A DNA stretch of 32,982 nucleotides, taken from the NCBI GenBank assembly GCA_030431855.1, contig JAUIII010000010.1:1-32982 (forward strand), read 5' to 3'. This document shows, piece after piece, positions 1,025 through 29,084 of the stretch. Origin of the DNA: a bacterium (GTDB lineage: Bacteria; Patescibacteriota; Saccharimonadia; Saccharimonadales; Saccharimonadaceae). The notes below the pieces were generated by a model. It was not told the origin of the DNA. It searched no databases and saw only the letters and a program-made list of their open reading frames with translations. Position 1 is the first letter of the stretch. Every line of letters starts with the position of its first letter. A program made the translations under genes and the position numbers.

Positions 1025-1351
1025 ATGCAACTAAACGATTATCAGAAAAAGGCACTCCGTACAGCACGCCCAAAAACCGCGAATGATGAATTGATGCACT
1101 TGCTACTAGGGCTTGTGGGTGAGTCTGGTGAAATTGCTGAAAAAGTAAAAAAAGTTATCCGCGATCAGAACAGTGATTTTTCACATCTGGATGAGCTGTT
1201 TGAGAAAGAACTCGGCGACGTGCTGTGGCATATCGCCGTACTAGCTGCTTATTTTGATATACCACTAGAAGCAATCGCTCAACAAAATATCGATAAGCTG
1301 GCGAGTCGTCAGGCACGTGGCAAAATCGGTGGCAGCGGTGACGATAGATAA
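1025..1351 (+). CDS. MazG-like nucleotide pyrophosphohydrolase
   Basis: This 108-aa protein is a single-domain MazG/all-alpha NTP pyrophosphohydrolase. The metal-binding pattern is visible as GESGE (E33, E36) and ELGD (E62, D65), within LGLVGESGEIAEKVKK and ELGDVLWHIAVLAAYF. Such enzymes split nucleoside triphosphates to the monophosphate and pyrophosphate, usually cleaning modified or surplus nucleotides from the pool. The ATG has an AAGGAA ribosome binding site and lies 3 nt after trmB, which suggests an operon. The exact substrate cannot be read from sequence. The C-terminus is basic and rich in G and R (RQARGKIGGSGDDR). Confidence 0.85.
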   Translation: MQLNDYQKKALRTARPKTANDELMHLLLGLVGESGEIAEKVKKVIRDQNSDFSHLDELFEKELGDVLWHIAVLAAYFDIPLEAIAQQNIDKLASRQARGKIGGSGDDR

Positions 1352-1372
1352 TAACGTGTAAATACTTGGACT

Positions 1373-1410
1373 CGGGAGGGAGCCCGCGCTGTTCGCGCGG
1401 GTCCCTCCCG
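1373..1410 (-). terminator. Strong G+C-rich hairpin without T-tract
   Basis: CGGGAGGG (1373-1380) plus A1381 and CCCGCGC (1383-1389) pair with GCGCGGG (1395-1401), T1402 and CCCTCCCG (1403-1410). That makes 16 bp with one bulged G and a 5-nt loop. It lies directly after the lipoprotein stop on the minus strand and after the MazG-like gene on the plus strand, so it may serve both. It has no U-run on either side, a style more typical of high-GC Actinobacteria than of the other terminators in this window, which do have T-tracts. Confidence 0.6.
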
Positions 1411-1415
1411 TTGTG

Positions 1416-1991
1416 TCACGCTGCTGTGGTCGAACCGTCCTCGACCATCATCAGGTCGAGGGGCCACCCATCTGAGTCGCCGCTGCATCCGCTGCGGTAC
1501 TCGTCGAGGTTCACGGCGACGTCCTGGATGTGCACCCAGGGGATGGTGATCGCGAGCTCGTTGTTGTACCGGCTCACGATCTCCAGGTCCGTGTAGTCCT
1601 CGTTCTCGGGGTCGTCGAGCGCGATGCCGACTGCCACGATGCAGTACTGCTCGAACCGCGCGACTGCGAACCACCCTTCGGCCATGTACTGCTCGTTCGG
1701 GACGTGCAGCTTGCTAGTTCCCCAGAACTCCTGAAGGATCAGCAGCTCGGGCGGCGTCCGGCTGGACGGCCAGTCGTTCCAGGCGTCGTAGTCACCGTCG
1801 TGAACGGTGATGTCGGGCACCAGGACGTCCAGGCTTTCGGGTTCAGCCGGGATGGTGACCTCCGTGGGGGAGGTCTCGGACGGACGGTCCAGGATGCTTG
1901 CGCACCCCGAGAGCGTCATGACGATCACCAGAGCGATCGACGTGGCGAGGGTGCCTCTGGGGCGCACCACACCCGTGACAATGCTGCGCAT
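1416..1991 (-). CDS. Lipoprotein of unknown function, probably acquired
   Basis: This is a 191-aa protein from the ATG at 1991; a GTG one codon upstream (1994) is an alternative start. The N-terminus has basic residues (MRSIVTGVVRPRG), a hydrophobic stretch (LATSIALVIVMT) and a lipobox, LSGCAS, so it should be lipid-anchored and exported. The mature part is acidic (EPESLDVLVPDITVHDGDYD, AVGIALDDPENEDYTDLEIV) and I cannot assign a family. Its DNA is visibly much richer in G+C than any neighbour, with codons such as GTC, CTC, GAC and GCG dominating. It also carries its own strong hairpin. Together this points to lateral transfer, plausibly from an actinobacterium. It sits between two ordinary genes on the opposite strand to the first. 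Confidence 0.72.
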   Translation of the reverse strand: MRSIVTGVVRPRGTLATSIALVIVMTLSGCASILDRPSETSPTEVTIPAEPESLDVLVPDITVHDGDYDAWNDWPSSRTPPELLILQEFWGTSKLHVPNEQYMAEGWFAVARFEQYCIVAVGIALDDPENEDYTDLEIVSRYNNELAITIPWVHIQDVAVNLDEYRSGCSGDSDGWPLDLMMVEDGSTTAA

Positions 1992-2032
1992 CACCCACTA
2001 CCTACTAAGTGCGTATAGGCAATGGGTGACGC
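1988..2032 (-). promoter_or_regulatory. Hairpin that would hide the lipoprotein start codon
   Basis: In the minus-strand transcript GCGTCACCCA (2032-2023) can pair with TGGGTGATGC (1997-1988), 9 of 10 positions, with a 25-nt loop. The ATG start (1991-1989) lies in the 3' arm. This may control translation or may be incidental. Confidence 0.35.
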
Positions 2033-2043
2033 ACAGTTAATAT

Positions 2044-2049
2044 ATTATA
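2044..2049 (-). promoter_or_regulatory. Possible -10 box for the lipoprotein gene
   Basis: A consensus TATAAT on the minus strand lies in the A+T-rich stretch just outside the G+C-rich segment, 52 nt before the ATG at 1991. No good -35 is seen. If used, native-type promoter DNA would be driving the acquired gene. Confidence 0.35.
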
Positions 2050-2061
2050 ACACGTTTTTAA

Positions 2062-3300
2062 CTATAATGCTAGTCTAGATCGTATCCAACCATCAATCGA
2101 ACCGGCGCCCATGCATACAACCAGGTGTCCTTCACTACGATGACGCTGAATATCATCCCATAGCATATCGTCGAGATTGCTGAAATGGACACGGTCTTTG
2201 TGTGTAAGCTTTTCAGTGAGCTGCTGCGGCGTCAACACCTCAAGTTCTGAGTTCTCACGACTAAGGTAGGTAGGGAGCCAATACACCGCCTCTGCTACAT
2301 CCATACAATCAGTATATAAATCACGCACTTCGTGCTGTCGTACGTTCTGATGAGGCTGATATACTAGCACAACGTGGCTCGAAATCTCACCTGCCATTTG
2401 CAATGTTGCGGCGATTTCAGCGGGATGATGACCATAATCGCTGTATAGATTATCGGCAAGTTTTTCAAACCGACGATTTGTACCAGGGAAGGTAGCGAGT
2501 GCTGTGATAGGGTGGGTAAGGTTCAGATATTCACATGTCTTTACTACCAACGTTGCATTGCGGCGGGTATGTTCTCCGGCAAGAGATACATCGATGACCT
2601 CGTTATCCTCTAGTTGCCAGGTCGACCCTTCGGCTATGTTAGCGATATCACGTTTCCAGCCAATAGTGTGAGCTGACTGCCGAGTAAACTCATGAAATGC
2701 ACCACGGTACTCGGCTTCACTCTCATACGTATCCGGGTGGTCATACCCAAGACTCGTGATGATAGAAAGATGTGGGTGAAATTGCAGCATGTTTCGGTCG
2801 AACTCGTCGCATTCGTACACGAAATACTCAGCCGCAGGGTCGAATTTCCCACTTGGCCCAAAGCCAATGGTCGTACCGACTTGGTAACTGATGGGTACGC
2901 CAAGCTGCTGTAGTGTCCATATCAACATTCCGGTCGTCGATGTTTTGCCATGAGTACCGCTCACTGCAATCAGCTTCAGTGTATGTTCATCAATGATGTG
3001 TTGCAGTAAGGCATCGCGTTTTGACACGCGAATACCGAGCTGTCTTGCCACCAGCAGTTCAGGGTGATCGTCTGGCAGGGCAGCGGTGTATACAAGCCAA
3101 TCAATCGGCTGGGCGTCATGCTGTTGTTGTAGCCACGAACCATCTTGGTCTGTGTGCACGTCTATGCCACGCTCGCCTAGCTGAGTAGTCATTAGGTTAG
3201 GGGTGGGTTCACTGCCAAGCACGTCATAGCCTGCATCCTGGCAGATTTCAGCAAGTGGCCCTAATGCGACGCCGCCCAACCCAGAGAAATAAATTCGCAT
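2062..3300 (-). CDS. murC: UDP-N-acetylmuramate--L-alanine ligase type Mur ligase
   Basis: The 412-aa protein has the three-domain layout of a Mur ligase. The N-terminal Rossmann part is MRIYFSGLGGVALGPLAE, the ATP-binding loop SGTHGKTST lies at about residues 114-122, and the C-terminal domain carries FPGTNRRFEKL and SDYGHHPAEIAATL, equivalents of the MurC FPGvkRRFE and DYAHHPTEI motifs. MurC adds L-alanine to UDP-MurNAc in the cytoplasm as the first peptide step of peptidoglycan synthesis. The recycling ligase Mpl is a close relative and cannot be fully excluded. I use the ATG at 3300, not an upstream in-frame codon, because a TATACT box ends 6 nt before it. The protein is somewhat shorter than typical MurC (about 450-480 aa). 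Confidence 0.8.
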   Translation of the reverse strand: MRIYFSGLGGVALGPLAEICQDAGYDVLGSEPTPNLMTTQLGERGIDVHTDQDGSWLQQQHDAQPIDWLVYTAALPDDHPELLVARQLGIRVSKRDALLQHIIDEHTLKLIAVSGTHGKTSTTGMLIWTLQQLGVPISYQVGTTIGFGPSGKFDPAAEYFVYECDEFDRNMLQFHPHLSIITSLGYDHPDTYESEAEYRGAFHEFTRQSAHTIGWKRDIANIAEGSTWQLEDNEVIDVSLAGEHTRRNATLVVKTCEYLNLTHPITALATFPGTNRRFEKLADNLYSDYGHHPAEIAATLQMAGEISSHVVLVYQPHQNVRQHEVRDLYTDCMDVAEAVYWLPTYLSRENSELEVLTPQQLTEKLTHKDRVHFSNLDDMLWDDIQRHRSEGHLVVCMGAGSIDGWIRSRLAL

Positions 3301-27506: not shown

Positions 27507-29084
27507 ATGAAAAAATCCAAGAAAACGAAAGGTGGCACAATGAATTGGCTGAAACCATCAAAAATGAGGGTGCTAACAGTAGCAGTAATCTTTGGATTTG
27601 TAGGAGCAGGCTATCTTCTGTACCAAACATTCGCGGCCTCAAATACGGTTCATTACTGGGGTGCATTAACCCGCACAAACCAAGCTGCTGTCTACAAGTT
27701 GACGACTGGTGCGGGAGCTCTCGATATAACATTTAGTAATAACACGGCCGACCTAGTGCTGACCGTACGCAACAGCGCTGGCAAGACTGTAGGATCGGTT
27801 GAAAGTATTGGTAAAAAAGATGTCTATCTAAAGCTTTCTGTTACTCCAGACACCTACACTCTCACGCTCACTCCGCAAAAAACGCGTAATTTTGGAAAAA
27901 AGAATAAAGGCTACTCGCTACACGTGACCTATCCGGTTGATGATATCGAAAGCCCAACAGCAGTTATTACTAAACCACTCAGTACAGAGGAACTTTCGGG
28001 TACGGTTGATTTCCTGGCTAATTCTCAAGATGACACAGGCGTCGTGAAGGTAGACTTTTATGTCGATGGCGTGCTACTTGGCACAGACGCATCTTCACCG
28101 TATGGCACAAAATGGGACACAACTGTCGCATCGAACGGCGTACACAAATTAGTAGTAAAAGCTTACGATGCTAAAGGCAATGTTGGCCAGGCACAGGGCG
28201 AAGCTACGGTAAAGAATGTAGTAGCACAAAAGCAGCGTTTCCCTGGCGACTCGAACCCCCTCGTAACAGGCAAAGCATACTGGGGTGCATCTGGCACTCA
28301 TATCAATGAACACGAGTCAGCTACTGGCAAATCAGTAGCAATCCACCGTTCGTTCTCTCCATCATGGCCTGGCACTACAAAACTTGTCAATGCTATCGAG
28401 GATGATAATGCAAACAACCGCCTCCCATGGGTGTCTACTAAAACAACTGGTTGGGGCACATTCGCCAATGGATCATACGATTCTGAAATCGACCAGTTCC
28501 TTCGCGACATCGACAAGGCCGCAAATGGCAACCCAGTATGGCTAACAATTCACCATGAACCCGAAAACGATAGTAGTTCAACTGGTCAGTACACAGCGGC
28601 AAACTTTCGTGCGATGCAAACAAAGTTCCGCCAACGCATGACCATTGTCGGTACAGAGAACATTGCCTTTATGCCAATCTTCCAGGGCTACAGTTGGGCA
28701 ACATCGAAATGGGACATCAACGACTTCTATGTAAAAGGTATCTGGGACGCAATCGGTTTTGACCACTACTCAGATTCAGCCGATAAGGATCTGCTGCGCA
28801 AACGATACTACGATGCAGTTGCTTGGATAGAGTCAAAGGGTCTGCCGTACGCAATAGGTGAGTTTGGTGTACGTGACTACGGCAACGCTACGCAGCAAGC
28901 ATCTGAACTCCGCGACTTCTGGCAATGGGGCTTTGCTAACAAAAAAGATGCTCTCGGCTACTCATACTTTGACTCGGGTCAAAACAGCCCGGCAGGTACG
29001 TGGGAGCTTGAGGGCGCACGTCTAAATGTATGGCGCGACATCCTAAAGAACGACAAGCGTGTTATTCGTACCGGTGACCTATAA
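27507..29084 (+). CDS. Surface or secreted glycoside hydrolase-like protein with Ig-like domain
   Basis: A 525-aa exported protein. A basic start and a helix at about 22-43 (VLTVAVIFGFVGAGYLLYQT) are a signal peptide or anchor. A beta domain (about 48-145) is followed by a bacterial Ig-like domain (about 150-235: SGTVDFLANSQDDTGVVKVD, VDGVLLGTDASSPYGTKWD). A TIM-barrel-like domain from about 255 resembles GH26-type enzymes: WLTIHHEPEND with candidate acid/base E351 or E353, and YAIGEFGVRDY with candidate nucleophile E452. It would cleave an extracellular polysaccharide; the substrate is not known. AGGGG lies 7 nt before the ATG. It ends 38 nt before the next gene. Confidence 0.78.
   Translation: MKKSKKTKGGTMNWLKPSKMRVLTVAVIFGFVGAGYLLYQTFAASNTVHYWGALTRTNQAAVYKLTTGAGALDITFSNNTADLVLTVRNSAGKTVGSVESIGKKDVYLKLSVTPDTYTLTLTPQKTRNFGKKNKGYSLHVTYPVDDIESPTAVITKPLSTEELSGTVDFLANSQDDTGVVKVDFYVDGVLLGTDASSPYGTKWDTTVASNGVHKLVVKAYDAKGNVGQAQGEATVKNVVAQKQRFPGDSNPLVTGKAYWGASGTHINEHESATGKSVAIHRSFSPSWPGTTKLVNAIEDDNANNRLPWVSTKTTGWGTFANGSYDSEIDQFLRDIDKAANGNPVWLTIHHEPENDSSSTGQYTAANFRAMQTKFRQRMTIVGTENIAFMPIFQGYSWATSKWDINDFYVKGIWDAIGFDHYSDSADKDLLRKRYYDAVAWIESKGLPYAIGEFGVRDYGNATQQASELRDFWQWGFANKKDALGYSYFDSGQNSPAGTWELEGARLNVWRDILKNDKRVIRTGDL

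Follow-up and report, generated by a model that had tools for sequence, protein, structure and literature searches.

The 32,982-nt stretch of Saccharibacteria DNA analyzed here (the window) harbors a gene for a 191-aa lipoprotein (1416..1991, minus strand, stop codon TGA), the base composition of which departs strongly from that of its surroundings. The gene call is based on GC3, on the codon log-likelihood and on related proteins that occur in three further genera of this family. The source organism probably lives on other bacteria, with actinobacterial hosts presumed, and a first-pass annotation of the sequence had proposed that the gene was acquired from such a host. The locus raises the question of whether the composition of this gene is the mark of such an import or has another origin.

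The G+C-rich segment described earlier proved to be real. The G+C content over 1366-2034 was 0.643, against a mean of 0.471 (sd 0.025, maximum 0.549) for 579-bp stretches elsewhere in the window. Segmentation with a two-state HMM placed the island limits at 1368-1975, with a G+C content of 0.656 vs 0.480 for the genome, and 0.33% of 8,139 genome-wide 608-bp windows (mean 0.480, sd 0.039) were as G+C-rich as the island. The G+C content of the ORF at codon positions 1, 2, and 3 was 0.61, 0.44, and 0.88, respectively (GC3 0.876), and GC3 of the 23 other genes in the window was found to be 0.39-0.59. The claim of actinobacterium-like codons was also borne out, as comparison of Actinomyces with native usage gave a log-likelihood of +77.5 nats toward Actinomyces, the reference for which comprised 15 genes of one actinobacterial plasmid stretch (L286). 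The same log-likelihood, calculated per codon, was negative in every native gene of at least 200 aa.

The product looks like an exported lipoprotein, as had been suggested. A hydrophobic signal segment is followed by a lipobox with Cys (L-S-G-C, residues 27-30; 1902..1913, minus strand), the sequence pattern of a bacterial lipoprotein, and Cys30 would be the lipidated residue. The lipobox Cys is invariant in the four relatives, and all four homologues also have in common Cys117, Cys169, and the motifs around YCIV and SRYN. The mature part comprises ∼160 residues, and the AlphaFold model showed a confident core from residue ∼60 to 170. The best structural matches were Tli4/TplEi, SciW, and DcrB, with Z-scores of 4.3-7.2, which is the usual chance range, and 6-9% identity. 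A Foldseek search against the PDB gave no match at E < 0.001, and E for folds of the DcrB/Eag/Tli4 type was > 0.05. The modeled domain, a small α/β one, appears similar in arrangement to Tli4/TplEi, SciW, and DcrB, with no sequence match between these proteins and the lipoprotein. Some proteins of these types are periplasmic lipoproteins or immunity proteins, and the structural matches offer only a lead toward a small periplasmic or immunity-type lipoprotein domain. There was no credible Pfam or PADLOC match and no Rfam match. A sub-threshold NCBIfam match to a T6SS immunity lipoprotein was rejected, as the matching part is confined to the region of the signal peptide.

Among 151 genomes from the Saccharibacteria family, relatives of the lipoprotein were identified in three other genera (G475, G457, and G500; E of 8e-14, 2e-10, and 1e-6) with 25-28% identity, and two of the three matched the window gene back in its own genome on reciprocal search. 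All three carry a lipobox and a strong 3′ hairpin. Their GC3 values were 0.84, 0.61, and 0.72, compared with a G+C content of 0.51, 0.54, and 0.49 in the respective flanks; GC3 is clearly raised in two of them, the third (L113) showing 0.61 with a flank of 0.54. The scan was carried out with concatenated proteins and seemingly scored three candidates per genome, so counterparts of other cassettes of this kind (described below) would be undercounted in it. In 379 genomes from across the phylum, both a direct search and a profile scan retrieved the window gene alone. Plasmids, phages, and viral contigs gave no match, although the plasmid set did return Actinomyces, Nonomuraea, and Arthrobacter as first matches for an NCS2 permease from a sister species. 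No actinobacterial relative was found among genome contigs and chromosomes scanned by exact octapeptides only, a method weak for distant relatives, and an alignment scan of genome contigs yielded no conserved stretch. The earlier interpretation is therefore supported in part: codon usage, TGA stop, and hairpin type are actinobacterium-like, but acquisition from an actinobacterial host is not supported by the homologues. The relatives found all belong to the same Saccharibacteria family (with actinobacterial chromosomes covered by exact peptides only), an outcome that the first-pass annotation had itself named as speaking against its proposal.

The gene is located between a mazG-type pyrophosphohydrolase gene (1025..1351, plus strand; PF03819, E 1e-9) and an mpl/murC-like Mur-ligase gene (2062..3300, minus strand; three Mur_ligase Pfam domains), both syntenic in the genus. 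Conservation across the genus extends to trmB, mazG, and mpl, the last two being convergently oriented. The gap between the latter two (1352-2061 in the window) is empty and 3-28 bp long in seven species, and spans ∼820-1220 bp in five species, where it holds an HD-domain-like gene, a NUDIX-like gene, and others (the loci compared include L033, L034, L035, L037, and L038). In G379, the gap is occupied by a different, unrelated G+C-rich cassette on the same strand (L038, ∼2194-2645), which has a TTGACA/TATAAT promoter and a U-less GC hairpin. No orthologue of the lipoprotein was present in the 13 other genomes of the genus, i.e., one species of the genus has the gene. Judged from these comparisons, the mazG-mpl interval is a variable intergenic pocket that appears to gain and lose genes.

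The segment seems to be equipped with its own expression signals. Sequence reading placed an extended -10 promoter, TGTTATAAT, directly past the mpl stop (2044..2052, minus strand), and no good -35 was seen by eye at a spacing of 16-18 bp. A 22-bp hairpin with a 9-nt loop (1984..2036, minus strand; fold z -6.6), which was absent from the first-pass annotation, lies at the presumed 5′ end of the mRNA and covers the start codons at 1994 and 1991. If transcription is initiated after the extended -10, GTG1994 and ATG1991 would be buried in this hairpin. The arms of this hairpin differ at five positions, each of which, by reading, allows G-U pairing in the minus-strand transcript, suggesting that the hairpin functions at the RNA level. 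GTG at 1994, 1970, and 1967 are possible alternative starts, and with either of the last two the signal peptide would be similar in length to those of the relatives. In the three relatives, the GTG start was read ∼7 nt past the -10 box, and the leader of the window copy therefore differs from theirs.

At the 3′ end, the previously described 16-bp G+C-rich hairpin (1373..1410, minus strand) was confirmed, with a fold z of -6.0 vs shuffles, past the stop codon and devoid of a T tract (one T among the 8 nt next to the stem). It is presumed to be a U-less (I-shaped) terminator. Such terminators have been described in mycobacteria (PMC12288462), and the hairpin in the window is similar to these in having a strong G+C-rich stem not more than 50 bp past the stop and no U tract. 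Unlike the mycobacterial ones, it stands beside genes of a 48% G+C genome, and its role in termination is putative.

The island in the window is one of 31 G+C-rich islands, 16 kb in total, in its own genome (G000), other examples being C4:235-664, C6:8962-10496, C9:3828-4511, and C24:1189-4907. At least 26 of the 31, referred to here as cassettes, carry a single short ORF of high GC3, with a length of 58-281 aa except for one of 606 aa. The cassette proteins are mutually unrelated and the genes are orphans; no Pfam family was found for the eleven proteins scanned, and several cassettes encode lipoproteins or surface proteins as judged by sequence. Codon usage of the cassettes correlated with that of the Actinomyces reference (r = 0.968) and much less with that of native genes (0.295), and their amino-acid composition was near native, whereas the codon choice was not. 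TGA served as the stop codon in 23 of 26 cassettes vs 61 of 513 native genes, a promoter score of at least 10 was obtained for 69% vs 7%, and SD was present in 85% vs 35%. The median of the 3′ hairpins was -31 kcal/mol in cassettes, mostly without T tracts, vs -12 kcal/mol in native genes; 5′ hairpins were stronger in cassettes, and cassette UTRs and hairpins were G+C-rich too. The window gene fits this class, with a single G+C-rich ORF, a TGA stop, and a G+C-rich 3′ hairpin.

Translational selection in the organism's own cell was rejected as a cause of this composition, since the codons oppose both native preference and fusA and groL, the sole two highly expressed references. Phage or plasmid cargo was also rejected, as the lipoprotein and the concatenated cassette proteins had no matches. 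Temperate-phage morons are single genes of deviant composition that bring along a promoter and a terminator and are found as insertions between conserved genes. The window cassette resembles them in all these features, the extended -10, the 16-bp hairpin, and the deviant G+C being signals recognized by sequence only. It differs from morons in being chromosomal (bordered by mazG and mpl), in belonging to a class of ∼30 per genome, in having no phage or viral match, and in that the composition is maintained in orthologue pairs of its class. The 7-bp inverted pair reported earlier as bracketing the segment does exist, though its length is really 14/16 nt: the left arm (1344..1359, plus strand) overlaps the mazG stop and the right arm (2050..2065, plus strand) overlaps the mpl stop and the promoter. 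Its match score slightly exceeded the 99th percentile obtained with mismatched flank pairs; the automatic promoter call had shortened the flank of this cassette in the repeat test, and the 14/16 pair was scored by hand. No flanking direct or inverted repeats beyond chance were found in the other cassettes. Hence, the pair is not a shared element end, and an element with terminal repeats was rejected.

The sister genome G302 contains 34 G+C-rich islands, and six cassettes of the window's genome have G+C-rich counterparts in it with 29-57% identity, with the neighbours conserved where checked. The C6_8951 family has kept a GC3 of 0.91-0.96 at 37% identity, next to the same upstream gene, in three species. 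Between G302 and G383, all 11 of 11 orthologue pairs were G+C-rich in both genomes and colinear on both sides. In 12 pairs (L119/L120 added), G↔C changes amounted to 1.03 and G/C↔A/T changes to 0.36 of the expectation from native four-fold sites (p = 1e-10); without the NCS2 permease, the values were 0.88 and 0.34, respectively (p = 6e-7). The overall four-fold divergence was lower in cassette pairs (0.13) than in native genes (0.27). Since G↔C changes occurred at the native rate while G/C↔A/T changes were 3-fold depleted, and loss of a foreign composition would be expected to leave the opposite pattern, the composition of the cassette class is being maintained and does not signal recent transfer. 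A history in which the copies diverged inside G+C-rich donors and then repeatedly took over the same sites would look like maintenance, but is less likely in view of the eleven colinear sites. The same bias in the NCS2 permease, which is of actinobacterial type, also counts against this reading, as do the lower overall divergence of the pairs and the GC3 of only 0.61 in L113. The 12 pairs tested are of other cassettes, the window gene having no close orthologue for such pairing; it would share the maintenance of its class and may be younger than the class. Foreign-looking composition is a standard sign of recent transfer, and it fails for this class of orphan genes, in which something maintains it. 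The lipoprotein alone is of modest interest, whereas a class with host-like composition maintained in sister species was unexpected.

Taken together, the segment is probably a self-contained single-gene expression cassette, one of a class resident in this Saccharibacteria lineage and placed in variable intergenic pockets. This reading draws on the computed composition, class size, anatomy, family relatives, colinearity, and substitution bias in sister-species pairs; expression, hairpin function, surface location, any cause of the maintenance, and its extension to the window gene are inferred. Transcription from the promoter directly after mpl would yield a short mRNA with the 22-bp hairpin around the start codons at its 5′ end and the U-less hairpin at its 3′ end. 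After export and lipidation at Cys30, the product would be exposed on the cell surface as a ∼110-residue α/β domain, in which the invariant cysteines 117 and 169 could form a disulfide. An ancient actinobacterial origin of the cassette class is possible.

That the lipoprotein gene was taken up recently from an actinobacterial host, for instance through natural transformation, and placed behind a native promoter appears rather unlikely. Such an import would account for the actinobacterium-like codons, TGA stop, and U-less hairpin and for the presence of the gene in only one species of the genus, and natural competence has been reported in the oral group (PMC11665869). In a sister species, an NCS2 purine-type permease in a G+C-rich island (G302:C1:715204-716679, L160) shows 62% identity to Actinomyces oris, its best plasmid match. 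This actinobacterium-derived gene is similar to the lipoprotein gene in island and codon type but differs in having 62%-identical actinobacterial matches, none of which were found for the lipoprotein. The relatives inside the family, the lack of plasmid, phage, and viral-contig matches, and the class-wide maintenance in place weaken recent import as a full explanation. Because ∼30 genes share the composition and have kept it in place over deep divergence, while foreign DNA should drift to local composition, import is disfavoured in comparison with a resident cassette class.

It is also conceivable, though improbable, that host-like codons, stops, and terminators are kept because the cassettes are occasionally expressed, from their nucleic acid or mRNA, within the actinobacterial host, which they would reach via a DNA-capable export system. 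Every layer is actinobacterium-like, including TGA in place of TAG at equal G+C and codons opposing native preference, and the composition is maintained in sister species. Saccharimonadia have a T4SS that resembles conjugation systems by relationship and is indispensable for growth as epibionts; however, a relaxase is mostly missing from it, and other functions have been proposed (PMC12102498). The cassette promoters are of the native-gene type, and the NCS2 permease, which is useful to the organism's own cell and also present and colinear in G383, has the same substitution bias as the cassettes; both argue against host tuning. If host tuning were true, ∼30 stand-alone genes would be written in the dialect of the actinobacterial host and at times expressed in the host cell. 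Less probable again is a local GC-biased process (gene conversion or repair) or an RNA-structure constraint, rather than codon tuning, keeping the segments G+C-rich. The G+C-rich UTRs and hairpins and the composition retained by the NCS2 permease are consistent with it, but the islands stop sharply at transcription-unit limits, and a swap from TAG to TGA leaves G+C unchanged. An assembly chimera or contamination, which might be suspected as the assembly is fragmented and the window makes up an entire contig, with the island 1.4 kb from the contig end, is very improbable given 31 islands in a genome with 0.22% contamination, the recurrence of such islands at colinear sites in independently assembled genomes, and flanks that run into native genes in conserved order.

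No description of such cassettes in Patescibacteria was found in the literature searched, subscription papers and most preprints lying outside its scope. For epibionts living on Actinobacteria, the resident cassette class would narrow the candidates for host-interaction genes to a short and defined set. Additional features were observed. Two tandem cassettes with a common leader and terminator sequence and different ORFs are present at G000:C15:10667-11634 (L060), and a tandem cassette pair was also seen at G302:C1:234461-235512. The G+C-rich cluster at G000:C24:1189-4907 (L090) encodes exported surface proteins that contain repeats, lies next to a gene that may be sortase-like, and has counterparts at G302:C1:733439-738545. 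Within the window, 27507-29084 encodes a 525-aa exported protein, the C-terminal half of which reads as glycoside-hydrolase-like. A G+C-rich block of ∼11 kb at G302:C1:269957-280827 (L138, L139), with a possible T4SS-type ATPase as judged by sequence, may be a mobile element.
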